A stretch of 64,000 nucleotides of DNA from NCBI RefSeq assembly GCF_002196705.1, contig NZ_NADJ01000015.1, forward strand, positions 1 through 64,000. Direction: 5' to 3'. This stretch comes from Desulfosporosinus sp. FKB. GTDB taxonomy: Bacteria > Bacillota > Desulfitobacteriia > Desulfitobacteriales > Desulfitobacteriaceae. The position numbers and the translations under genes are program-made. Positions 15,320 through 64,000 of this stretch are shown here, one piece after another (the stretch's first letter is position 1; every line of letters begins with the position of its first letter). The notes beneath the pieces were generated by a model. That model was not told where the DNA came from. It worked only from the letters and a program-made list of their open reading frames with translations, and made no database searches.

Positions 15320-15426
15320 TAGATAGATACTACAAGCCGGATATAACGGGACAGAGCAAATACAAAACCATAAGACAACTGAGATTGGCGGAGATATCAT
15401 AAAGACAGACGGATAACTGAGAGCTT

Positions 15427-15505
15427 GAGCTGTATGTCTTGAAAGGGACACGTACAGTTCTTAGGCGAGAAAAAGGGCGCAATCCCTCTGACTTAGCCGA
15501 CAGTT
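15427..15505 (+). mobile_element. Group II intron 3' remnant (domains V and VI)
   Basis: Positions 15427-15460 fold as a 34-nt domain V: lower stem GAGCTGTAT/CGTACAGTTC, a two-base bulge, and upper stem GTCTT/GGGAC capped by a GAAA tetraloop, with the catalytic AGC triad. A domain VI-like hairpin follows to about 15505. No reverse transcriptase or 5' intron end was found, so only the 3' tail remains, next to the broken surface-protein gene. Confidence 0.8.
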
Positions 15506-16510: not shown

Positions 16511-17218
16511 CTATATGGGAAACTTATTTATAACATCGTTATATTCTTGTTGGGCATCGGTGATAGCTAATTTCGAATATACCTCAAGAGATTTTCGGCT
16601 TTCATGACCGGAATATGGTTGAATAAGCGCATCATCTATGCCTTGCTTTTTCAGCCAGGTTAACAAAAAGTGCCGTAATTTATGTGGAGATAAATTCTGT
16701 ACTAGGCCGGCTTCTTCTGAGTACTTAGCTAAGATTTTTCGAATACCTCGATCCGTATATTTCTTTTTCCATGAAGATTCAAATAGATAAACGGCTTGTT
16801 TATTGGACATTGAATCAGCATGCATGGCCAGCAATTCCTTAAATGTTTGGGGGAACGGGACAATGCGATCTTTGTTCCCCTTGCCTTTATTTATCCTTAT
16901 TTGGCAGTAATGAAAATCAACATCTGTTAGCTTGATGTTTATTAACTCACTTACTCTTGCGCCGGTATAGAGTAGCGTTTTAACTATCATCATGTCTTGA
17001 AAGTTCTTAGTCTTCCAGACCACATCATAGTATCGCTTTATTTCTTCTTCCGTAGGAACATAAGGTAACTTCTTGGACGTTTTAGGTATTTCTATTTCTA
17101 ACTCAGCCCTCAAGTGTTGAAATAAGCTTTTTAGATAAGCATAGTCAGGCCGTTCTCCCCGGAGATACTTGGCCAGCTCCTTAGCTTTCTTTTTAGCCGA
17201 AGTTCTTTTCTCTGTCAT
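16511..17218 (-). CDS. tnpI: Tyrosine recombinase, TnpI-type resolvase of the Tn3 element
   Basis: 235-residue tyrosine recombinase with catalytic Arg in [14 protein letters not shown], the H-x-x-R box in [12 protein letters not shown], His in [10 protein letters not shown] and the nucleophile in VYSKL. In Tn4430-like transposons TnpI resolves cointegrates in place of a serine resolvase. It overlaps the tnpA stop by 4 bp, so the pair is co-translated; in Tn4430 tnpI precedes tnpA, whereas here it follows. The N-terminal SAM-like domain is short. Its core recombination site was not located. Confidence 0.87.
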
Positions 17219-20187
17219 GCAATCACACCTTCTTCCAAAGGAAGGCGTTCTCTCATGTTCAATTTGAACGTTCCATAAGGGTTAATATGGGTGTATACGA
17301 GAGGTGTGAGAGCACGAAAGTCTTCCGAAGTCATTAGGTTAAACCATTTTTGATTTGATAAGATGTTTTGAAGCATAATCGTGTTGATATACACCAAACA
17401 ATTCTGTAATAGGTGTAATGAAAGGACAGCGATCTCCTGATCATCTAGTCGGTTTGTCGATATTTCCCCACCCTTACCGTAAAAGATAAAGCTGTTTGCG
17501 CTATTCCAATTCTCCACGACGTTTAATCCTTTATGAATCTCCTGGCGCAGTTCTTCGGAATGCAGATAGTCACAGAGGAAAATGGTTTTTACGGCCTTCC
17601 CAAGCTCTCCTAAAGCCTGATAGGTCGGATGTTTAAGGTTATTGCGGGTAAATCGCTTTAAGATAGCTTCTGTTTCAGCAGTCCCAAGACGCAAGGCAGT
17701 AGCATACTTCACCATTTGGTCATACTGCTGGCGGATTAAATCCCAGTTGATTGGGCGTGTAAGTACCGGTTGAAGATTGGGGTAGGATTCAGCCATTCCG
17801 GATTCCGGTCGGTATAGCTTTTGAGAGTGAATGGCCTTTAGGCGCGGCATTAACTGATACCCAAGCAAATGACAGAAAGCAAAGGCTACTTCGCTTTGTC
17901 CATGGGAGTCAACGTAATTCTTCTCGACTTCCATTTCAGTACAATGCCTTAGCAAGCCCTCGATCATGGCGGCAACTTCGGATGAGGAACACGATTTTAG
18001 CTGCGAGTAAATACAGGTTGAATTCTTTTCTACGTGCCAATAGATCATAACGCCCCGGCCACGGTACCGGATATGCCATTCAGTCATGAGGTTTTGGTCC
18101 CAAGCGCCAAATTTCTTCGAATCAGAAGCACAAGAAGTGGTACCATCACCCCATATTTCCTGCATTCTAACTCTAAAGATTGCATTCACAACTTCAGCAA
18201 TAGCATTCCTTAGGTTATCCCGGTGTATAAACTTACGCCGTACGTAAAGCAAATCTTTATAGGATTCTTCATGTTCACCGGAGCTAATTCGTTTTAATCC
18301 TGTATTAGTATCTAATCCATATAGAGACAAAATCAATCTTCTTTGCAAAGTCTCTCGATCCAATATTTCCCGATTGGCCACGGTCTTGAACTTTTCGGTA
18401 AACGATACGCGCAAATCAGTTTCCTTTAAAACATCTAATAAGCTTGTCATTGGCCAGCGACGCAGTAATTCGGCTTTAATACGATTTAAGTTAGCCGGTT
18501 CTGCTTGCGGTTCCAAAGGCGATAAGGTTATCCACCCGTTTCCTTTCTCAATAATCCGGACTTTAGGATTTTTGGGAATTCCAACATCTAGACGTTCCAA
18601 ACCCTCAATCATTGCTTGTTTTAATGCGTTTATAAAGGATTCGGCATCCATGGGTTGATTAAGAGCTTTGTAGTTTTCTTCTCTCCGTATCTCGAAATCT
18701 GCAGGTAGGTCTTCATCAGGGTTACGATACCGGTCGGCACCTTTTACCCAAACTTCTTTACAACGAAGGCGATCCCTTAAGGCTTGAAGTGCGCTGATCT
18801 CATAATTGATACGGTTAATCCGTTCCTGGCCATTATCATCTTTTTCAATAATAATTTCTTTGTTTACGGAACGAATAACCCCATCCACCGGAATATCTTC
18901 TGACGCAGGAAAATAATGCAATCCGGTTTGAGCATACTTTTTGATAAGTTCAAGAGCTTTAATGACAGGCCGGTGAACCTCGTTGTTAGACTGGAATTGA
19001 AGGATGCTTAAGATTTCTGGAATCATCCGGCGATAGTGGCTGCTATAAGAGGCGCGAATTACAGTATGAATTTTTTCCCGGTAAGCTGGACCCGTACTTT
19101 TAAACTCTTTAACCAGGTCTTTTAACGTCTGTTCGCTGACTATCGGATAGAGAACGTCCTTAATTATCCCGTTCGGGAATTCCAGAGCTGTTTGCGCCAA
19201 GTTGAACAGGATGCCTTGTTTGTTGCTCACCCGCCGCAGATCGTTAAGTATTTCCTTTTCTACTCTGCGCTCAGCTCGTACTCCAATGCGGTGAATGATC
19301 TGGATAAGCAGTTCTATAAGATTATCGGTGATTTCCATTCTACGGAGGTAAAAGAAAGCGGATAACAGCGTGTAGCGTATCGGCTCAGGATGCCGGCGCA
19401 GTTCACGGATATCCTCGGTAGCCACACGTTGCTTATATTTTTTCAAGACTTTATACGGAACATCCCAGTAAAGATCATCCGGAAGATCCAAATTCAGAAT
19501 CGTTTTAAGCTTGTTAATTTCTTTAAAGACACTTTCTAGCCCTGGCCGGCCTGGATCTGACCTTAACTCATGAAAAGAAAGCTGATCGCCATTTTCACCG
19601 GTTGGTTCGTCTTTTTCCTCGTCCAGGGATGAGATACTATCTATCAGGACATCTAATTTGGACAAAGATGCTTTAGGTATCTTTTCATAGGTGGCTTTAA
19701 AGAATTGATCTTCAAAAGTGGAGATAGCAGACCTAATAAGTCGATCAATACGTTCCGGGGTAGGAGGAACAATTTTCTGCTCTCGGAACCGACGATACAC
19801 CATTTCCTTAATATGTTCAAATTCCTGGTCGTGATACAAGACGTTCTTGCACAACCAGTCGGTTATTTCATGAGCATCATGGACAGTGTCTTCTCTGAAG
19901 CCAAAGAATTCCCGTATTTGTGTTCGATGATATGTAATGGATCGTCCGGCCCAGTCGTACTTTGCGTACAGTTCTTGTGAACTATCAATTTGTTTGGCTA
20001 TATAACTAATAACCGCTTTAGGAACTTCGTATTTGTTTGTCGGAAACCTGGCTTCGTATTGGAAAAACTTAAACAGTACGGCAAAACCTATCCTGGTTTC
20101 ACCAGCCTTGTTCCCTATCTGTTGTAATTCATGGGGTAAGAAGGTGAAATGTTCTATTAGCTCATCCAATTCCCAATTCCTCTTCAT
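17215..20187 (-). CDS. tnpA: Tn3-family transposase
   Basis: 990 residues, the full length of Tn3-type transposases. The N-terminus ([19 protein letters not shown], about 1-170) is the DUF4158 domain; the C-terminal third is the DDE catalytic core with Asp in CASDSKKF (near 680), Asp in YVDSHGQSE (near 750) and Glu in [19 protein letters not shown] (near 880). No stop or frameshift was seen, so it may be active. It catalyses replicative transposition between 38-bp terminal repeats, which are present at both ends of the unit. Confidence 0.94.
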
Positions 20188-20456: not shown

Positions 20457-23147
20457 TTACAATAACTCTCCGTATTTCTTGACAAAAAGGGTTTTAATAG
20501 TTTGGGCAAGGGCCATATAGGCAACAATTGTAGCGATAAGCCACGGGAAATATATTAATGGTAACGGCGACATTTTAAGATATCCTCCGATAGGTGTAAA
20601 CGGGATAATTGTACCTACAGCAATAGCCAATGAGGTTAGAAGCAAAACGGGCTTAGACGCACGGCTTTGAATAAAAGGCACCTTCTTCGTACGAATCATG
20701 TGAATTACAAGTGTCTGCGACCACAGGCTTTCCACAAACCAACCAGTGTTAAACAGCGTCATAAATCCAGTTTGAGCTTCAGGGGTAAGGGTGTGATAAG
20801 CACCGCCGAATATACTGGGGCCAATAATAAAGAACATAAGCAGATACGTTGTTATATCAAAAACTGAGCTTGTGGGGCCAATCCACAGCATAAACTTACT
20901 GATTGAGGAAGCATCCCATTTTCGTGGTATTTTCAGGTAGTCGGCATCCATATTATCCCACGGGATTGAAAGGCAAGAAATGTCATAGATTAGATTGAGG
21001 ACAAGAATTTGTATCGGCAGCATCGGCAAAAAGGGCAAAAACGCACTCGCAACCAAAACCGAAAACATGTTGCCAAAATTGGAGCTTGCCGTCATCTTAA
21101 TATATTTAATGATATTTCCAAAGATCTTTCGTCCTTCGACAACCCCTTCTTCAAGTACCATGAGGTCTTTTTCCAGAAGAATAATATCCGCTGATTCCTT
21201 AGCGATATCAACTGCGGTATCAACTGAAATGCCGACATCAGCTGCACGCATTGCAGAAGCATCATTAATACCGTCACCGAGAAATCCTACTGTATGCCCG
21301 TTCTCACGGAGCAGTGTAACAATTCTTGCTTTTTGCTGCGGAGACAGTTTGGCAAATACACTCGTTGATTCTACTTCTAATTTCAGTAGTTCATCAGTCA
21401 TTCCTTCAATATCCGAACCAAGTAAAAGCTTGTCAACCGATAATCCAACTTGTTTGCAAATACAACGTGTTACAGCGTCATTATCCCCTGTCAAAATCTT
21501 AACCGCTACACCGTATTCGTTAAGTGCTTTGATAGCCGCCATCGTTGTTTCTTTGGGTGGGTCAAGGAAAGCAAGATAACCCATTAAAACCATCTCAGCT
21601 TCATCTTTAACGGAGAATACACCTTCTACGGACGGATTTGTTTTTTGTGCTACTGCAATCACACGCATGCCGTCATCATTAAGTTTAGCAACGGTTGCTA
21701 AGATTTCCTGTTGGATTTCGGAAGTTAGAGCCACAACCTGACCATTATATTCGGCGTATTTTGATACGGACAACATTTCCTCTACGGCACCTTTTGTAAT
21801 AAGTTGTGTTTTTCCTTCCCGATCTTTTAAAACAACGCTCATTCTGCGGCGTGTGAAGTCAAAGGGTATTTCATCAACTTTTTCGTATTTGCTTTCTAGA
21901 TTGTAAAAGGGTTGTTCTTTTGAATGTGTGAGAATAGCAATATCCATAAGATTTTTCAGCCCTGTTTGGAAATAGCTATTCAAAAAGGCGTGACGTAAAA
22001 CTCTTACGTCTTCGTTGCCATGAATATCAAGATGAAGTTCTAAGATAACTTTGTCTTGCGTTAGAGTACCAGTTTTATCAGTACATAAGACATCCATCGC
22101 TCCAAAGTTCTGCATAGAGTGCAGATGTTTAACAATTGTTTTTTTCTTGGACATCGAAACGGCACCCTTAGCGAGATTCGTTGTCACAATCATGGGCAGC
22201 ATTTCAGGGGTAAGTCCTACTGCTACGGATAAGGCAAAGAGAAAAGCTTCGAGCCAATCACCCTTTGTAAAGCCATTAATGAACAGCACGATTGGAACCA
22301 TAAACATCATGAAACGAATTAAAAGCCAGCTTACAGAGTTTACACCCTTGTCAAAGCTCGTCTCCACGCGTTTTCCAGTGACTGATTTGGCGATGGAGCC
22401 AAAGATGGTATTATCACCTGTAGCAATCACAACACAGACCGCAGAACCACTGACAACATTACTGCCCATAAATGCAAGATTTTCAAGCTCCAGGGGATTA
22501 CTTGACAATGCTTTTGGGGTTTGATGAACTAAGCTGCTGTATTTTTCGATGGGCTCGGATTCGCCCGTAAGAGCTGATTGACTAATAAATAAGTCTTTAG
22601 CTTGTAGTATGCGCACGTCAGCAGGAATCATATCTCCTGCAGCTAAATAAACGATATCCCCCGGTACAATATCTTCTAGGGGTATTTCCATTCTACCAAC
22701 ACCGTCACGCTCAATTGCAACGGTTGTATGCACCATAGCATTCAGCTTTTCGGCGGCATTATTGGATCGTGTTTCTTGTATAAAGCGCAACAAGCCACTA
22801 ATTGTTACCATCACGCAGATAATTATAACAGAAGATGGGTCACGATCCTCTGGTGCGGCCAATACAACATCAGTAAAAAGAGATATGACAGCAAGGACAA
22901 AAAGTACAACAGTAAAAGGATTTATAAAAGCATCGAATATCCTTTTAAGCACAGATTCTTGCTTATCATGGGATATTTCGTTACTACCGTACTCATCTCG
23001 TAGAGTGTTAACCATTTCTTCATTGAGACCGCGATACGAGGTTCCCATTTCCTTGAAAAGTGTTTCCGTTTCCATTTTACTGGAAGCAAGCAATTTTTCA
23101 GACATAGGGGATACATTGCTTTGTATAGTTTGAATTACTTTTTTCAT
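20457..23147 (-). CDS. mgtA: Magnesium-importing P-type ATPase
   Basis: 896 residues, type IIIB P-ATPase that brings Mg2+ into the cytosol. Cation-transporter N-terminal domain ([20 protein letters not shown]), actuator loop SALTGESEP, phosphorylation motif CTDKTGTLT, hinge [20 protein letters not shown], and C-terminal membrane helices rich in Pro/Phe. AAGGAGG precedes the ATG. Upstream on the same strand are an M-box riboswitch and a terminator, so it should be induced when Mg2+ is low. It sits inside the Tn3 unit between tnpA and the right TIR and is therefore a transposon passenger. Confidence 0.93.
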
Positions 23148-23504: not shown

Positions 23505-23552
23505 ATATTACCCAAGTTACATACACACATAAAAGTAGTGCATGATATCGTT

Positions 23553-23702
23553 CAAGCTTTAGCTTCGCAAGGCGATGAAATTGCATTAGAATATGCCTTG
23601 GTTTCGACATATCCTGCTAACCTTCTCATAGTGTCTCCACTACTCCGCGGCAGCAATCCGTATCCCTGCGGTAGCCTCACCTACCGAGTGTTATTTAGTT
23701 CA
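23553..23702 (-). promoter_or_regulatory. M-box (ykoK) Mg2+ riboswitch
   Basis: The minus strand carries the characteristic order GGTAGGTGAGGCTACC, GATACGGATTGCTGCCGC, AGTGGAGACACT, then AGGATATGTCGAAACCAAGG and CATCGCC, closely matching the ykoK leader consensus known from memory. M-box RNAs fold on Mg2+ and expose a terminator, turning off Mg2+ transporters. Position upstream of mgtA and of the terminator at 23468-23504 supports the call. Exact aptamer edges are approximate. Confidence 0.87.
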
Positions 23703-41264: not shown

Positions 41265-43697
41265 CTATCCGGCAATTTGGGTCCAACCAACTCCCTTAAG
41301 CTTTTCCGTAACTTGAGAATTGGTCGTGGTTAGTATTATTTGCCTCGAACGGGATAGATCTGTTAAATATTCAATAATGTCATTCCAGAGGTTCTGGTCA
41401 TCAGACATTTTTCCCATGGAGAAGATCAAAGGAACTTTAGTGTTGTAGTTTAGAGCTAACTGAGCAATCGTCATCCGATAAGCAAAATAGTCACGCTTTG
41501 CCATGTCCAGAGCACTTTGTGGTTCCCCTATTTCTCGTTGGCTGAAGAATTCTCTTAAAATCTTCGCTGCGTCATACTTTAAGGCATTACCGTTATTTAC
41601 TTCCCAGGTGTTGATTGAGCTTTCAAATAACTTTTGGGCGTCATGAAAGGCTTGCAGCAAACTTTCATAACTCATCCATTCTTTCTTAACAGTCTCAATT
41701 TCTTCTTCTAAGACGACTAAGGAAGGACGCTTTTGCAATAATTGTAAACGCTGCTCCGCCTGTAACCGCTTACTGTGCATCTCAGCCTGTTCCTTTTGCC
41801 AAGAGGTAAGTGTTGCAAGACGATTTTCGTCCGAAATCAGTGCTTCTTTTTCCAGCTCTGCTAAGGGTTCCAGTTTTTTAGAAAGGCCTTCTAAGTTTCG
41901 ATTACCAAGCATAGTCTGTAATTTGGCTGAACACTCGCTTAATCTTCTTTCTGCTCGGTCTTTTGCTCTTAGTTCATGAGCTGCTTTAAGGATTGCAGAT
42001 AAGACGTCTTCCCGATCGCTTACAGGTATATTCCAGCCGACGAGTTTTTCTTGAAAGCCTTCAGTGAAGGAGTGTAATTTATTGGTTTCTTTCTCTGAAC
42101 TTTCAATTAACGATTGGCGTTTTTTATGCAGATGGGATAACTGAAGCCTTTTTTGATTGCAGCTTTTCCATCCATCAAGCCATGCCGGAAAATCAGCGAC
42201 ATTAGTCATGAAAAATGTTTGATTTAATAATTCATTACGTGTATGGACGATCTTAAGCAGAACTTCTTCATTGTCAATTTCAGTTTGCAATTGAACCAGT
42301 TGCTCTTGTATTTTTTCGACGTTTTCTTTTTGTTCACGAAACTTCATGAGCCGGTTCTGGAACTCCTCGAAATTTTGAACATGAAACTTCTCATATAATC
42401 GATTAATTCGCGATCTAAGCTTTTCCTCGATACTATTTCTGCCTAAATGGTTTTTTAAAGTATGATCAATTGAGCGGCTGATTTTCGATGTTTGCCATTT
42501 TTTCAATTGCTTTTCCCAGCGTTCAACTCGATATTTATCGTCTTCTGTTATAGCTGTCATTTCTGCAAATTCCTGAAGGTGAGTTTTTTCTTCGGAATAT
42601 TGTAATCGGGTACGTTGCAAAGCTTCTTGATAGTTAATTGAGTTGTTGAGTTGTTCCTGAGCAGAATTCCTTTCTTCATAAAAGCTGCTCATTCGTTCCC
42701 TTTCCTCATTTGATCCTTCATAGCCACAGGTTTCAAAAAAGATTTTAAGTTGTGTTATCATGTCTGTTAATTTTTGAATGATATGGTCGTAACGTTTTAC
42801 CTGTGCTTGAAGATCTGCCCACTCAATACATTCATTACGTAAACTCTCTAGGAACTCCCACTCAATAATTGAATTGCTTGTCAAGGCTGCTAGATTGATT
42901 TCAGCACAGCGGATTTCCTCTTCTGAATTTATAATTTCCGTTTGGAGTCGGCGTAATTCCCGATAGTCTTGGTTTTGGTTTAACAATGACAATCGCTCTT
43001 GTATTTTATTAATAGAGTCAATTTTATTTACCAGGATTGCTTCACCTTCCTGGAACTGATTGATCTCAATGATCAGTAACCGTTCTTCCTCTTGCTGACG
43101 GTGAGTGTCTTCCCAGTCTTGTCTGAGAGTATCGTATTTAGCTTTAACCAGAGCCATTTTCCCCTTTTGTTCATTTAATTTCTGCATCGCACCGGCAAAA
43201 CAAGCTTTTACTTTAAGGGGTGATAGTTCTTCATCGCCGCTCTGACAAAGGTTATCAATTCGCTGGCGGAGTTGATCGAGATCATCGATGTCTGACCAAT
43301 TGACGATTACCCCCAGTTGAAAGAGTTGTAGTTTTATGCCAAATATGTATTCGCCTAATACTGATGAGTCAGAAAACGACACATTCTGCCCCGTTATTTC
43401 ATCCTTAATTAAGGCTGAGGTAGGAATAAAATCATTGTTCTCTTTCAGATAATGCTGACGTATACAGCAACGATTATTTTCATCACCGCTGAAGACTAGC
43501 TCTAAGAAACTCGTGTTATTAAAGAGTTTCATACTTCCCAGTGGCGTTTGAGGACTAAACAATTTTAATAATAACTCAATCAGTGATTTTTGTTGGGTTT
43601 CGTCTTTAAAAAGCAGAAAAGCAGGGCTTGCCGGAAATGCCCAAGTGACATTCCCAAGCCCCTTTAACCGGCTGCCTTTGATATGTTCAATTTTCAT
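41265..43697 (-). CDS. YhaN/SbcC-like coiled-coil ATPase, degenerate Walker motifs
   Basis: 810 residues: N-terminal half-ATPase head, long coiled coil (about 190-690) and C-terminal head, the architecture of YhaN/SbcC/Rad50. The expected P-loop is replaced by FLLFKDETQQKSLIELL, without GxxGxGKS, and the expected Walker B strand reads PLIFSMGKMSDDQNLW, without the paired acidic residues after the hydrophobic strand. ATP hydrolysis is therefore doubtful. A distal TTTNSQVTEKL occupies the switch-region place. It overlaps the upstream partner gene by 11 bp. B. subtilis YhaN is longer (about 960). Possibly a structural partner only. Confidence 0.75.
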   Translation of the reverse strand: MKIEHIKGSRLKGLGNVTWAFPASPAFLLFKDETQQKSLIELLLKLFSPQTPLGSMKLFNNTSFLELVFSGDENNRCCIRQHYLKENNDFIPTSALIKDEITGQNVSFSDSSVLGEYIFGIKLQLFQLGVIVNWSDIDDLDQLRQRIDNLCQSGDEELSPLKVKACFAGAMQKLNEQKGKMALVKAKYDTLRQDWEDTHRQQEEERLLIIEINQFQEGEAILVNKIDSINKIQERLSLLNQNQDYRELRRLQTEIINSEEEIRCAEINLAALTSNSIIEWEFLESLRNECIEWADLQAQVKRYDHIIQKLTDMITQLKIFFETCGYEGSNEERERMSSFYEERNSAQEQLNNSINYQEALQRTRLQYSEEKTHLQEFAEMTAITEDDKYRVERWEKQLKKWQTSKISRSIDHTLKNHLGRNSIEEKLRSRINRLYEKFHVQNFEEFQNRLMKFREQKENVEKIQEQLVQLQTEIDNEEVLLKIVHTRNELLNQTFFMTNVADFPAWLDGWKSCNQKRLQLSHLHKKRQSLIESSEKETNKLHSFTEGFQEKLVGWNIPVSDREDVLSAILKAAHELRAKDRAERRLSECSAKLQTMLGNRNLEGLSKKLEPLAELEKEALISDENRLATLTSWQKEQAEMHSKRLQAEQRLQLLQKRPSLVVLEEEIETVKKEWMSYESLLQAFHDAQKLFESSINTWEVNNGNALKYDAAKILREFFSQREIGEPQSALDMAKRDYFAYRMTIAQLALNYNTKVPLIFSMGKMSDDQNLWNDIIEYLTDLSRSRQIILTTTNSQVTEKLKGVGWTQIAG

Positions 43698-44862
43698 AAC
43701 TTATCCTTCCCTGTTCGAGAGCTGCCAGTCCGATTTTTTTAATCAACTCCCATTGCTCTTGTTCTGCCGGGGTTCCCGCTGTAGATTGATACTCTTTGAT
43801 TTTTTGAAAATAAACTTGAGCTAAGGAAAGATAATTGCTCTCTTCCAGTGAGGTTTTATTCGATGTCGAGAAATCAGGCGTCATAAAGTCCAACCCGAAC
43901 TGAGAATCAGCTTCAGTTTGAGGGGTAACAACTTCGATAAACCGAAATTTTTCTGTAAGCAACTTTTGTAAGGTATTTATGTCCGCTTCCTTCGGTACTT
44001 GATTTACAAAGGCTATTCTATATAAATGTTGCTCACGATCTTCAGAACTTGTTTCTGACAATAATTTTGCAATAATGGCTTTATAGTCCTGATGAAAGTC
44101 AAGATATTTCGTAATGTATTGCCGCTGTCCTAATTCCCGAAATTCTATCTGAACATGATCTTGGTCAAGTTTGCCGACGATCACACCATGGGGCCCTTGC
44201 TCGTTAAAACTTCTGGCTTCAAGAACGCCGCTATCTGCCCAGATGGTTTTTCCTGCTTTCTGAATTCCGCTAAAGATCGCTTGATGCCCCAAAGCTAGAT
44301 ATGCCAACCCGCTGGCTGCAATATGCTCGGACCTAAGGAAGAAACTTTTGGGACTATTTGATTCGGCTGCCTCAGAATGGAGCAGCATAATCGGTAGAGT
44401 TCCATCGTCTTTTGCTCGAAACTCCTGATTGAGTACAGTCCTGTCTTGTTGATAAGCAGTCCAGCCAGCTCCATATATGCTGATATTATGACTTTTAAGG
44501 TTAAAGCAACTGATTTCACCGGAAAATACCTGGACATTACCAGGCCATACAGCAAGTCGATACGCAGATGTCGTAACATAAGGGTCCTTTTCGCCTGGAA
44601 CAATGAAAACACTTGTTGTTTTTAAAGCGCCTAAGGATTTTGCTACCCGTTCAACCGTTGACTTGCGGGTATATTCTTGTTCGAATAAATTCCCGGTTAT
44701 AAAAAGCAAATCAATCTTTTCAGATTGACAGATTAAAAGCATCGTCTCAAATGTTTTCCACAAGTCCTGATTACGTTGTGAAAGCCATTCTTCAGGACCT
44801 TCCCAATTGGGACTGTCAAAGCGACAACCCGAGCATTGTAAAAAACGAATTTGCGGAGACAT
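43687..44862 (-). CDS. YhaO/SbcD-like metallophosphoesterase, degenerate active site
   Basis: 391 residues with the SbcD/YhaO fold order but altered metal ligands. The opening DxH motif is replaced by FLQCSGCRFDSP; GDxxD reads ITGNLFE; GNHD reads PGEKDP; the final GHxH reads LGHQAIF. Only MLLHSE keeps its His. Nuclease activity is therefore unlikely. GAGGTGA precedes the ATG. Together with the degenerate ATPase gene that it overlaps, this is a paired loss, suggesting an altered function rather than random decay, since both frames remain open and intact. Confidence 0.75.
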   Translation of the reverse strand: MSPQIRFLQCSGCRFDSPNWEGPEEWLSQRNQDLWKTFETMLLICQSEKIDLLFITGNLFEQEYTRKSTVERVAKSLGALKTTSVFIVPGEKDPYVTTSAYRLAVWPGNVQVFSGEISCFNLKSHNISIYGAGWTAYQQDRTVLNQEFRAKDDGTLPIMLLHSEAAESNSPKSFFLRSEHIAASGLAYLALGHQAIFSGIQKAGKTIWADSGVLEARSFNEQGPHGVIVGKLDQDHVQIEFRELGQRQYITKYLDFHQDYKAIIAKLLSETSSEDREQHLYRIAFVNQVPKEADINTLQKLLTEKFRFIEVVTPQTEADSQFGLDFMTPDFSTSNKTSLEESNYLSLAQVYFQKIKEYQSTAGTPAEQEQWELIKKIGLAALEQGRISYEN

Positions 44863-45210
44863 ACCTTCACCTCAATCCCGATATTCAATGTATGTTGGTA
44901 TGTTTACTTCGGTTAAAATACGGTAGAGGAATAATTTAATTTTACTATAGAACGAATGCAATAAACCATAGGCCATTAAGCTCAGAAAAATATATACTAT
45001 ACTAGTTTTTCTTTTTCAATACTATTATCGAAAAAAATCGTTAAAATATTAAGATAACATGACCGAAGATTTGGAAGCGATGCTCTATCCTTTTCTCTAA
45101 ATAGAAAAGGGTCCCATCAAAACTCGACAGGACCCCAAAATCAGGAGGATAATATTAAAGTAACCAATTATGGAATATTAATTCATTCTCTCGCTATCTA
45201 AAAAAGGCTC
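44863..45210. other. Intergenic with a weak hairpin
   Basis: GGGTCC...GGACCC (45108-45135) could be a weak hairpin; no gene seen. Confidence 0.4.
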
Positions 45211-58681: not shown

Positions 58682-61600
58682 TCATAAGAATAGTTGATTT
58701 TCCAGTGATTGCTGTATTTCTAAGCGGCGTGAATTGGGGATAATGATTTCTCTTCCTAAGGAAAAGGAATAAAGGGAACACTGAATAACCTCTATGCCCA
58801 TAAGCCTTTCGATGGCCAAAGCATAAAGTGTCAGCTGAAGGGCATAGCGATCCCTGAGAAGTTGTTCCGGGTCCTTCCCTTCCTCTCTTAGAGAATCTGT
58901 TTTGTAGTCTAGAATTTCCGCCCTGATCCCCTGTTCCTTCTTAGTGATCATGACTACATCTATGACTCCTTGAACCAGGATATTCGTTTGAGCTTGTTTC
59001 TGAGGTGGAAAAGTCAGGGTAAAAGGAAGTTCCTTAAGGACTTGATCAGAACTGAAAAGACGTAACCCGAGGGAAGTATGGAGCAGCTGAAGGATTTTCA
59101 GAGGCTCAATCGTATTCTTTTGTTCTGTAGTGATAATCTCCTGCTCTTCCAGTCGATTAAGCAATTCCTTGATCTGGATTGTTTGTTCCTCTGCTTCCAG
59201 CTTCAGCCAGGCTGAACTCCAATCCTTAAAGGGCAAATGCTGCATTACGGTATGCAGAGCAGTTCCTCGTTCTGCAGCTGTAAAGGAGTGAGACGACTGC
59301 AGAAATTTGGGCCTGAGAATCTGACTTTCCCTTGTCTGAAGGCTTTGATGTTGAGAGGTCTCGTCATCTGCATACCAATTATGCTGACGTTTCAACTCCG
59401 AAACGCTGGTTTTAGCAACCTGGCTTACGGGATGGGGATATTTCCAGCTTAAGCGGCGACTGACCTCTGTATACCATTGTTCAACGGACATAATCTCATC
59501 AGATATCTCGCTAGCTTCTTCAATGGTTTGTCCAAGGCAATCTTGATCCTGTCTTTCTGCTTCTTGGGAAAGCATAAGTACTTCTTGGCGGCTAATTTCT
59601 TGTTCCGCTTCCAGGCTGTGATGATAGACGATGTCCCAAGATGAGTTTGCTTCAGGAATAGTTAAAACCGATTGTTCCTGGTTTTTTCCAAGACTAAGTG
59701 AAGGATGACGGACTAAAGCCGGAACAATCCAATCGAGAAAGGATTTAGCATTTCTAAGTTGATCATCGGGCAGAGGGATCTCTTGCCAGTCAGAAATTCG
59801 CTGCCACTTTAGTAGACTATTATCTAAGTTTTCTACATTCCCGTATAGAAATAAACGTTCTTTGGCCCGAGTAAGAGCAACATAGAGAATACGCAGTTCT
59901 TCGGCTAAGGACTCTTGAGTTAGCCGCTGCTGAACAGCATATTGGATCAACGAGGGGTAACGAACGTTATTTTCAACGTCAATGATTGGCATGCCCAGGC
60001 CTAATTGGGCGTGCAGAAGCAGCTTTCCTTTCAGACTTCGTGAATTAAAGCTTCTTCCTAAGCCGACGACAAAGACTACTGAAAATTCCAGTCCTTTACT
60101 GGCATGGACCGTGATTAAGCGAACAACATTTTCATTCTCACCTAAGGCACGGGCATTCCCCATGTCATGGCCCTGATCCTGAAATCTTTCTAAAAATCTA
60201 AGAAAGCGGAATAAGCCCCGGTAGCGTGTAGCCTCAAAGCGTTTAGCCCGGTCATAGAGTACCCGAAGGTTGGCTTGACGCTGAACTCCTCCGGACAATG
60301 TTCCCACATAAGCCAAATACCCGGTTTCTTCATAAAGTGACCACAGAAATTCGGCCAGCGACAAACGGCGGGACTGAGTACGCCAGTCTTGGAGGTTTGT
60401 CCAGAAATCAGATGCTTTCTCCTTTAACCCCGGAGCTGAGGCAAGTATGTCTCGGGCTTTTTCTTTGCGCAGCACTATAGTATCGTTATACAGATTCAGA
60501 ATCCGGGTAAACATGGTCAAGTTATCTTCAGAAAGAGTTTCCTCGCTAAAACTCGACCAGGCAGCCAGTGCCAAAGCTTCATAAAAGTCCCCTTCCGGAA
60601 GGATCATCCGCAATTTGCCAAGTTCAAGCCCGTTAAGGCCGACAAGAGGCGAACGCAGAACTGCTGCCAAAGGGATATCCAGGTGAGGGTTATCGATAAC
60701 TTTAAGCAGAGACAAGATAATTTCCACTTCATGTGCTGCAAAGTAACCGGTCGACGTCTCAGCATAAACCGGAATATCCGCCTTTTGAAATTCCTCCACG
60801 ACTATGGGAGCGACCGCTGAGTAGGAACGCATTAAGACTACAATGTCGGAATATTGAACGGGCCGGAAATTGCCCAGATGTTTATCAAAAATTTGAAACT
60901 CAGAACTTTGCACCATACTTTGAATTCGCTCGCCGACAAAGTGCGCTTCAATTCTAGCCTTATCAAATTCTTCCGTAGAAGATTCTTGATTTGTCAATTC
61001 CTCGGGGCTTGAACTTGGTTCCGAAGAGGAAGTTTCTGTCGACCAAGAGTCTTTAATGCTCTTTAAATCGATAAGATGAACTTCAATTGGCCCTTCTGCA
61101 GTGGGGATTGTATCTTGTCCTTTGACAAAAGAGGCACCAAACCGTAAAGCTGCTTGATCGTCATAAGTGATTTCACCGGAACTTTTTGTCATAATTTGAC
61201 GAAATAGAAAGTTCACGCCATCGACAATTTCTTGACGGCTTCTAAAATTGCGGTTTAAATCAATCACCATTTTGACAGGAGATGCTGTATCAACGTTTAA
61301 TTCCGGATTCCAATGGGGTAAGTTCGCATACTTAGTTAGAAATAAACTGGGGTCGGCCATGCGAAAACGATAAATACTCTGTTTTACATCCCCAACCATA
61401 AAAAGGTTGGGAGAACAATCCTGGCGGGAGACACTTTTTAAAATTTGTTCCTGAACAGGGTTAATGTCTTGGTATTCATCCACTAAAACTTCATGGAAAT
61501 AATCCTGAAGTCCCAAGGCAATAACAGTTTCTTTTTCTTCTTCTTCAAGCAAGCCAAGTGCAAAATGCTCAAGGTCGGAGAAATCCAAAATGTTGCGCTG

Positions 61601-62680
61601 CCTTTTGGCATCCGCAAAGCTGCGGGAAAATTCCAAGACTAAACAGCTTATAGTCTGAGCCATTTTTGCCATAGGTTTTAAAGCTTCTAATTGGCGTTCA
61701 TGGGGATATGAAAAAAGTTCGCTCCGAAGTGTTGTTAACTTTTTCTTGGCCTCATCCCGAAGCTTTTTGCATTCTTCCTGCAATTGCTTATCCCCTTTTG
61801 AACGAGCAGCCGTTAGTTTAGGAAATTTAAGGGATTCTTGAACTTGGATTTCGATCTGTGTCCATGAATTGGCACTTACAAGCTTTTGCAAAATATCCAA
61901 GCGATTGATGTCATCTTGTAATGTTTCCGCATATTGGACCGGACCTTCAGGTTTTTGAGCAATTTGCTCAGCGCTTTTTAGATTGCTTAAGGCTTCCTGA
62001 AGGGAGTTAAGAAGTCCTTGGCGAATAATTTGTCCCCACTCGCTCTCCATCATTATTTCGAGATTATTCCAGAGATAGGCTTGATCAAGAGAATTAAGCC
62101 AATGCAAGGGGCTCGGCTGACTTTGGGCAAAATCGAAAATACGCAGTATTTGTTCCATAACTGCCAGATCATCTCGATCAGAACCTAAGGCATCAATAAG
62201 TGCGCTAAAGTCAGAGTCTTCTTTGTTATACCAAGCTTCAAAGAGATCTTCAATGACATCTTGGCGGAGGAGGGTTATTTCTGCTTCGTCAGCAACTCGA
62301 AAAGCTGGATCAAGATCTAATTGGTAAAAATATTTTCTAATTAACTCTAAGCAAAAGGAATGCAGTGTTGTAATATTTGCTTTCTGAAGCAGCGCACGCT
62401 GCTGGAGCAGGTGTTCAACTTGCCGGAGGTCATCCTCCTGAAACAAGGCCTCGTCGATAGCTTTGCCGATTCTCTCCCGCATTTCATTAGCTGCCGCTTT
62501 GGTAAAGGTAACGACTAGAAAACGATCTACATCGACCGGGTTGTCTAAATCTGTAATTTGTTTAATGATTCGTTCTACTAACACAGCTGTTTTACCGGAA
62601 CCGGCAGCGGCAGCCACCAAGAGTTGACCGCGTAAATTAATCGCCGTATGTTGTTCTGCAGTCCATGAAGGCTTACTCAT
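58682..62680 (-). CDS. addA: AddA helicase-nuclease
   Basis: About 1332 residues from ATG 62680, 6 nt after GGAGGAG (ATG 62683 also possible). UvrD-like ATPase: Walker A AAAGSGKTAVLVERI, DEYQDINPVQE, GDVKQSIYRFRMADP, and helicase motifs VHASKGLEFSVVFVVGLGR and RILYVALTRAKERLFL. C-terminal RecB-type nuclease has GVIDVVMITKKEQG and EILDYKTDSLREEG. With AddB it processes double-strand ends for RecA. Start overlaps the addB stop. Confidence 0.95.
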   Translation of the reverse strand: MSKPSWTAEQHTAINLRGQLLVAAAAGSGKTAVLVERIIKQITDLDNPVDVDRFLVVTFTKAAANEMRERIGKAIDEALFQEDDLRQVEHLLQQRALLQKANITTLHSFCLELIRKYFYQLDLDPAFRVADEAEITLLRQDVIEDLFEAWYNKEDSDFSALIDALGSDRDDLAVMEQILRIFDFAQSQPSPLHWLNSLDQAYLWNNLEIMMESEWGQIIRQGLLNSLQEALSNLKSAEQIAQKPEGPVQYAETLQDDINRLDILQKLVSANSWTQIEIQVQESLKFPKLTAARSKGDKQLQEECKKLRDEAKKKLTTLRSELFSYPHERQLEALKPMAKMAQTISCLVLEFSRSFADAKRQRNILDFSDLEHFALGLLEEEEKETVIALGLQDYFHEVLVDEYQDINPVQEQILKSVSRQDCSPNLFMVGDVKQSIYRFRMADPSLFLTKYANLPHWNPELNVDTASPVKMVIDLNRNFRSRQEIVDGVNFLFRQIMTKSSGEITYDDQAALRFGASFVKGQDTIPTAEGPIEVHLIDLKSIKDSWSTETSSSEPSSSPEELTNQESSTEEFDKARIEAHFVGERIQSMVQSSEFQIFDKHLGNFRPVQYSDIVVLMRSYSAVAPIVVEEFQKADIPVYAETSTGYFAAHEVEIILSLLKVIDNPHLDIPLAAVLRSPLVGLNGLELGKLRMILPEGDFYEALALAAWSSFSEETLSEDNLTMFTRILNLYNDTIVLRKEKARDILASAPGLKEKASDFWTNLQDWRTQSRRLSLAEFLWSLYEETGYLAYVGTLSGGVQRQANLRVLYDRAKRFEATRYRGLFRFLRFLERFQDQGHDMGNARALGENENVVRLITVHASKGLEFSVVFVVGLGRSFNSRSLKGKLLLHAQLGLGMPIIDVENNVRYPSLIQYAVQQRLTQESLAEELRILYVALTRAKERLFLYGNVENLDNSLLKWQRISDWQEIPLPDDQLRNAKSFLDWIVPALVRHPSLSLGKNQEQSVLTIPEANSSWDIVYHHSLEAEQEISRQEVLMLSQEAERQDQDCLGQTIEEASEISDEIMSVEQWYTEVSRRLSWKYPHPVSQVAKTSVSELKRQHNWYADDETSQHQSLQTRESQILRPKFLQSSHSFTAAERGTALHTVMQHLPFKDWSSAWLKLEAEEQTIQIKELLNRLEEQEIITTEQKNTIEPLKILQLLHTSLGLRLFSSDQVLKELPFTLTFPPQKQAQTNILVQGVIDVVMITKKEQGIRAEILDYKTDSLREEGKDPEQLLRDRYALQLTLYALAIERLMGIEVIQCSLYSFSLGREIIIPNSRRLEIQQSLENQLFL

Positions 62681-64000
62681 CATGATCTCCTCCTTCCAAC
62701 CAATGTAATTCTCCTTTTGTTGACATGTGATTATTTTCCTCGGGAGAGCCAATACTTTTCAGACGATTCCATAGATCTTCTTGGTCTAGTGGGCTCAGCT
62801 CCCGATATTGATTTTCCGGAAGGAAAGGATCGAAGTGACATACGGGGCGATAGGAGCAATATTGACAAGCGGTGCTTTTGCCTCGTCGATAAGGGTTTAA
62901 GGAAATTTCGCCGGCAAGAATGTCCTCTCCCCTTTGACGAAGGGCTTGATAAAGATAATGTTGAAGTATGGCAAATTGGTTTTCGGTGAGAACATTGGCT
63001 CCTTTCCTAAAGGAACCGTCTTTATTTAATTTAAGGCCCAGTAATTCGGATTGTCCGGAGGCAAAGGAGGAGTCCATCGCTTCCAGAACCTGAGGATCCG
63101 CTAATAAATAACCGCTGACTTTGACGGCTTTTAGTCTTCTCTCTTCAGCTTCCTCCGCACTGAGGGGAGCTTTCTCGTCTAGTTGCGGTTCAAGCACAGG
63201 AAAATAGAGAATACCGGCAGGCAATGGTGACGCGTTAACGGTATTTAATAAAACCTCTGCTCCCTGAAGAGCGACGCTTAGATACGTGAGCAATTGAAGA
63301 TTAAGGCCGTAGTAAATGGTATCCAGAGCCAAGGTCTGTTCGCGGGATTTATAATCAAGGATTCTCAAATAAACTTGACCTTGCAAAAAGGCAGCGTCAA
63401 CCCGATCAATTTGTCCCGTTAAAACTAAGGAATCTCCTTCGGATAAAGGAACCTCAATTCCGGGAAGTGTTTCATTGGGACCGAATTTGACTTCCAATTG
63501 GATGGGAAGGAATACGCCTTGCCGCGCATGCTCTCCCAGTACTCGAACGGCATGATGAACTGTGCGTTTGAGCTTGTGAGTAATGTAGCGATAGCGAGCA
63601 CTACTTAGGAGAATTTCGTGCTGTAATTGAGGTGCCAGTTGATCAGCACATTCCGTGACAAGCGCCCAGGACTCTTCCTTTGTCAATTTTCCCCAATCCA
63701 AATCTCTTTCCTGGAGTTTTTGGGCAAAATCCCGTAAAAGAGTGTGAAAAAATTCTCCCATATCCGGCCGGGAAAGTTGATACGTCGCTCGTTCACGCAG
63801 CTTTAGTCCATAATGGGCAAAATGTCCAAAGGGACATTTGGAGAATTGTTCCAACCGGGAAACACTTGCCTTTAACTGCTTGCCATAGAGGCGGCGAGCA
63901 AGTAAACGAGGAATTCGTTGTTCTTGGTTTTTGGCGGTAAGGCTGGACTGAATATAATTTAGCTTCCGCTGGTGTTTAGGATCTTGGCCCAGCCATCTCT
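62673..64000 (-). CDS. addB: AddB, C-terminal part (gene runs off the window)
   Basis: Open to the window edge on the minus strand; only the C-terminal 442 residues are seen. VSRLEQFSKCPFGHF provides the first iron-sulfur Cys and CQYCSYRPVCHF the others, the [4Fe-4S] nuclease signature of AddB. The nuclease core has GQIDRVDAAFL and LRILDYKSRE. The helicase-like part lies beyond base 64,000. Ends 7 bp into addA. Confidence 0.93.
   Translation of the reverse strand, partial: RWLGQDPKHQRKLNYIQSSLTAKNQEQRIPRLLARRLYGKQLKASVSRLEQFSKCPFGHFAHYGLKLRERATYQLSRPDMGEFFHTLLRDFAQKLQERDLDWGKLTKEESWALVTECADQLAPQLQHEILLSSARYRYITHKLKRTVHHAVRVLGEHARQGVFLPIQLEVKFGPNETLPGIEVPLSEGDSLVLTGQIDRVDAAFLQGQVYLRILDYKSREQTLALDTIYYGLNLQLLTYLSVALQGAEVLLNTVNASPLPAGILYFPVLEPQLDEKAPLSAEEAEERRLKAVKVSGYLLADPQVLEAMDSSFASGQSELLGLKLNKDGSFRKGANVLTENQFAILQHYLYQALRQRGEDILAGEISLNPYRRGKSTACQYCSYRPVCHFDPFLPENQYRELSPLDQEDLWNRLKSIGSPEENNHMSTKGELHWLEGGDHDE

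Follow-up and report, generated by a model that had tools for sequence, protein, structure and literature searches.

Within a 64,000-nucleotide stretch of Desulfosporosinus sp. FKB (contig NZ_NADJ01000015.1, positions 1 to 64,000; hereafter, the window), two genes on the minus strand had been described, from the sequence alone, as an SbcD/SbcC-like pair in which both partners lack their catalytic motifs. Both ORFs are complete (391 and 810 codons), which bears out the description of the two frames as long, overlapping and intact. As in YhaO-YhaN pairs, which are overlapping or abutting, the genes are adjacent and on the same strand; here they share 11 nt, and this overlap suggests translational coupling. 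A ribosome-binding site of the GAGGTGA type is retained in most relatives of the YhaO-like gene. The closest named relative is D. acididurans M1 (86% identity). The features of the locus are listed here with the basis for each.

44865..44873, minus strand: ribosome-binding site GAGGTGAAG, upstream of the YhaO-like gene
43687..44862, minus strand: YhaO-like pseudo-phosphoesterase (Mre11/SbcD fold), 391 aa (ORF, profile alignment, predicted model)
44119..44862, minus strand: phosphoesterase-like core, residues 1-248, with degenerate former metal motifs (alignment and model)
44821..44829, minus strand: former motif I DxH, now G-C-R, residues 12-14 (aligned columns)
43927..44118, minus strand: capping domain, residues 249-312 (predicted model)
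43708..43827, minus strand: C-terminal helix pair, residues 346-385 (predicted model)
43687..43697, minus strand: 11-nt overlap of the YhaO-like and YhaN-like genes (ORF coordinates)
41265..43697, minus strand: YhaN-like pseudo-ATPase (Rad50/SMC fold), 810 aa (ORF, profile alignment, predicted model)
43323..43697, minus strand: degenerate ABC-head N-lobe, residues 1-125 (alignment and model)
43584..43610, minus strand: former Walker A, now FKDETQQKS (canonical GxNEAGKST), residues 30-38 (aligned columns)
42798..43322, minus strand: coiled-coil base, residues 126-300 (conservation comparison)
41718..42797, minus strand: central coiled coil, residues 301-660 (predicted model)
41268..41513, minus strand: degenerate ABC-head C-lobe, residues 729-810 (alignment and model)
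41412..41435, minus strand: former Walker B, now VPLIFSMG, residues 755-762 (aligned columns)

Homology of the pair and loss of both active sites

Searches against Pfam and NCBIfam gave weak Mre11 matches for the YhaO-like protein and no match at all for the YhaN-like protein. Comparison of profiles with hhalign, by contrast, revealed full-length homology of the former to canonical YhaO (probability 100%, E 1e-74, residues 4-388) and of the latter to canonical YhaN (99.9%, E 4.3e-33, residues 1-803). The predicted model of the YhaO-like protein (pLDDT 81) has Mre11 and SbcD as its top PDB matches (against 4tug, Z 24.5, rmsd 3.1, 286 aligned). That of the YhaN-like protein (pLDDT 84) matches Rad50 heads (3auy, Z 18.8, rmsd 4.9, 322 aligned; 4nch, Z 18.1, rmsd 3.5, 245 aligned) and places a coiled coil between two head lobes, as expected of YhaN/SbcE. 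In the YhaO-like model, helices 347-361 and 365-384 come after a disordered linker; this C-terminal pair sits where Mre11 has its Rad50-binding helix-loop-helix, and by analogy would have the same role. We conclude that the genes are a true YhaO/YhaN (SbcE) pair.

With homology to the canonical proteins established by these profiles, the motif losses can be read from the alignment. We counted motif residues in aligned columns of 34 YhaO-like and 27 YhaN-like relatives, compared with 19 and 22 reference proteins. In the window, the YhaO-like protein has G.R in place of DxH, GN in place of GD, GEKD in place of GNHD and GHQA in place of GHxH; the two-metal site of YhaO (DxH, GD, GNHD, H, GHxH) is missing, and nothing remains of the metal motifs but the His of motif IV and the first His of GHxH. 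The claim that DxH, GDxxD, GNHD and GHxH are absent in canonical form was therefore correct. Among the relatives, the motif I Asp is replaced by Gly in 34/34 and the motif I His is gone in 33/34; the Asn and His of GNHD are gone from all 34, as is the last His of GHxH, for which 20 of the 34 have Glu. Other ligands are retained to varying degrees: the motif II Asp in 21/34 (it is absent from the window protein), the motif IV His in 31/34 and the first GHxH His in 28/34.

In the window YhaN-like protein, LIFSMG replaces LLLDDA; the C-lobe lacks the signature motif as well as Walker B, and Asn takes the place of the switch His. The Walker A, signature and Walker B motifs of YhaN/SbcE are thus lacking, in agreement with the reported absence of standard Walker A and Walker B. 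All 27 relatives have lost the first Gly, the Lys and the Ser of Walker A, together with the signature Ser and the acidic pair of Walker B. Chance does not account for this, because the same columns are gone in every one of the 34 and 27 family members. The profile alignment revealed no catalytic motif conserved at a shifted place. The sequence-only reading of a pair in which neither partner has its catalytic motifs is confirmed.

Distribution and reduction of the pair

Of 60 relatives searched, 40 gave matches. The pair is present, as a single copy, in 26 of 29 Desulfosporosinus genomes, the other three being drafts, and also in relatives belonging to genus g10, which we take to be Dehalobacter-like. 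In G037, a complete genome of that group, the YhaN-like gene is split into two frames (L058:6153-8424) that are intact as one gene in close relatives. Because of this broken frame and the three Desulfosporosinus drafts without the pair, we consider the pair not essential in every strain. Wherever the locus is complete, the two genes are paired, overlapping or fused. On the YhaO tree, the dead YhaO proteins form one clade (support 100/100, on a long stem of 1.2 changes per site) in which identity falls to about 40%; the remaining members of the set are mostly canonical. We found no canonical YhaO in any genome with the dead pair, including that of the window. For a canonical YhaN, the window's genome gave no strong AAA_27 match. 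It has a separate SbcD, which is intact and carries all motifs. The two-metal nuclease and the ATPase were probably both lost in an early ancestor of the clade. We found no earlier description of this clade in the open-access papers searched.

A different YhaO clade (L143, L144, L145, L147 and L148) has also lost metal ligands, but there the loss is partial and independent of the dead clade, and the YhaN partner is canonical, with Walker A and B kept, whereas in the window's clade YhaN is dead too.

Several relatives carry altered forms of the pair. In G055, G056, G057, G059 and G458 the two genes are fused into one frame; four of these were read, and in them full YhaO is followed by YhaN from residue 132-141, so that the N-lobe is gone. 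A separate fusion at the D. metallidurans locus (G019) is missing only about 38 YhaN residues. Because the fused forms are not monophyletic on the YhaO tree, fusion probably arose more than once. In unfused Dehalobacter-like YhaN-like genes the N-lobe is partly deleted, and G048 and G052 retain nothing beyond the phosphoesterase core and segments of the coil. The reduced proteins encoded at L065:8816-10510 and L066:8110-9828 are single chains of ~570 aa that join a dead phosphoesterase core to coil segments; the capping domain, the helix pair and the ATPase head are all missing.

We examined the surroundings of 40 loci, over as much as 18 kb each, and identified no conserved operon partner; the YhaO-YhaN linkage alone is constant. 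The neighbourhood being unconserved beyond the pair, it gives no operon clue to function. MutM-like genes lie near 12 Desulfosporosinus loci, and MutY-like genes lie near Dehalobacter-like loci and that of G029 (all identified by eye from sequence); their positions differ, so we rejected them as evidence. SOS control was likewise rejected, since there is no general LexA box (GAAC-N4-GTTC) upstream, the exception being three close relatives (about -217), as was membership of an anti-phage or phage family, since neither PADLOC nor PHROGs matched the pair convincingly.

Elsewhere in the window, at 58682-63854 (minus strand, like the pair, and ~14 kb upstream of it), we observed a gene for an AddA-like protein with a UvrD-like helicase and a PD-(D/E)XK nuclease domain, whose start is overlapped by another ORF. 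At 16511-20187 (minus strand), a Tn3-family transposase of 990 aa marks a mobile element and is adjoined by a 235-aa ORF, possibly a resolvase. An M-box magnesium riboswitch (23536-23695, minus strand) lies immediately 5' of a gene for a P-type cation ATPase (20457-23147), and there is a Group II intron domain match at 15425-15501 (plus strand), with no recognisable intron-encoded protein among nearby ORFs.

Selection and the shift of constraint

Across 22 gene-pair comparisons by the Nei-Gojobori method, dN/dS of the YhaO-like and YhaN-like genes was 0.13-0.28, indicating purifying selection. Pooled values were 0.21 and 0.23, as compared with a median of 0.12 in 67 comparisons of neighbouring genes. 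In close pairs, dN/dS of the YhaN-like N-lobe was 0.18; the head is therefore still under some constraint in Desulfosporosinus. There are no stop codons inside the YhaO matches from the 40 of 60 relatives, and decay among relatives is absent almost everywhere, the YhaN frame of G037 being the only one broken. We conclude that the pair is not decaying, but is maintained intact by selection across much of an order.

To compare regions of YhaN, we used pairs matched for total identity, of which the canonical set has only eight. Relative to the whole protein, identity in the dead clade is lowest in the N-lobe (0.84) and highest in the coil base (1.25), whereas in canonical YhaN the head is the most conserved part (N-lobe 1.35, C-lobe 1.39, coil base 0.94). 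The dead clade has also acquired invariant positions that are variable or different in the references: 22 in YhaO, of which 6 are tryptophans, and 57 in YhaN, of which 9 are tryptophans, numbers that are due in part to the lesser age of the dead clade relative to the canonical proteins. In the YhaO-like core, the new invariant residues are W20, G22, W26, D33, W35, W134, W208 and D210; in the coil base of the YhaN-like relatives they include W134, W195, W293 and the block NPDYREL. Thus, constraint in the dead clade has been relocated from the ATPase head to the coil base.

Discussion

The pair resembles canonical YhaO-YhaN (SbcE) of Bacillota in the order of its genes, which overlap or abut, in the layout of its domains and in matching the profiles over the full length, but differs in the loss of both active sites and in the fusions and head deletions of its clade. 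With Mre11-Rad50 and SbcCD it shares both subunit folds, including, in the predicted models, the capping domain and the C-terminal helix pair, but not the two-metal site, Walker A/B or signature; judged by the alignment, the residues required for the Mn-dependent nuclease and ATPase activities of those complexes are absent from the window pair. Rad50/SMC complexes are regarded as ATP-driven machines. We think it probable that the pair forms a YhaO-YhaN-derived complex acting as an ATP- and nuclease-independent docking scaffold, possibly associated with DNA. For the wider proposition, that a double-dead Mre11-Rad50/SMC-type pair has been rebuilt throughout the clade as a tryptophan-rich static scaffold, with deletion of the ATPase head in some lineages, we see the balance as even.

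A physical complex is suggested by the constant linkage of the genes and the occurrence of natural fusions. The two proteins would still bind each other through the C-terminal helices of YhaO and the coil base of YhaN, and the complex would serve as a scaffold or tether without ATP. The dead phosphoesterase core and the coil base would form the docking surface for a partner, either protein or nucleic acid, since even the most reduced relatives retain both. From ancestry alone, one might guess at a role near DNA repair or chromosome maintenance. There is precedent for such a fate: a dead Mre11-like phosphoesterase is retained as a structural subunit of a polymerase (PMC2669801; PMC4996933), and its fold is related to that of Mre11 (PMC4996933). 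That protein belongs to another family, however, and its partner is a polymerase rather than a coiled-coil ATPase.

Selection on a non-catalytic function, as first proposed, is supported; the analysis gave no direct support for the particular functions suggested for it (DNA-end binding, a decoy or a sensor). In canonical Mre11-Rad50, the DNA clamp is formed by ATP-driven head dimerisation. The pair might retain the DNA-end-binding or DNA-bridging role of YhaON while dispensing with nuclease and ATP cycling, an explanation to which we give a modest chance. The Mre11 and Rad50 folds and the domain layout are retained in the predicted models, and canonical YhaN (SbcE) is reported, in a paper cited in PMC3896406, to be involved in double-strand-break repair in Bacillus subtilis; yet the window pair has a degenerate head, parts of which some relatives have deleted, and the LexA box is missing from all but the three close relatives.

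Less probable still is that the pair modulates the canonical SbcCD of the same cell, or acts as its decoy, by binding its subunits or DNA substrates without cutting. An intact SbcD is present in the window's genome and SbcD occurs in most pair-bearing genomes, but it is found in most of the order irrespective of the pair. Two draft genomes with the pair (G029 and G450) have no detectable SbcD, and many genera have SbcD but not the pair; because each is found without the other, there is no co-occurrence signal, and this weakens the decoy proposal. The sequence distance between the YhaO-like protein and SbcD is also very large.

That the genes are functionless remnants in slow decay is highly improbable: their dN/dS of about 0.2 does exceed the neighbours' median, and there are the split frame in G037 and the domain deletions, but dN/dS is far below 1 in every comparison, no YhaO match contains a stop, new invariant positions have arisen, ribosome-binding sites are conserved and the clade survives to about 40% identity. 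It is equally improbable that the pair is still an enzyme whose active site has been rebuilt, for instance as a single-metal site made from Asp58, His162 and His193. These are kept in 16/34 relatives, which may bind one metal, and 20/34 have Glu for the last His; but the Asp is absent in the window, the set of ligands that is kept differs between members of the clade, and both motif I residues and the proton-donor His are gone in 33-34 of 34.

Conversion of an enzyme into a scaffold is thus the most likely account of the pair in Desulfosporosinus and its relatives, and annotation of these genes as a DNA repair exonuclease and ATPase would be wrong in this clade. If this account is true, a lineage that shed both motor and nuclease yet kept and re-sculpted the complex would reveal which component of the assembly is useful in its own right. 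The clade amounts to a natural deletion series that begins with an intact head, passes through trimmed heads and fused genes, and ends with the core and coil, so that this question can be tested directly.
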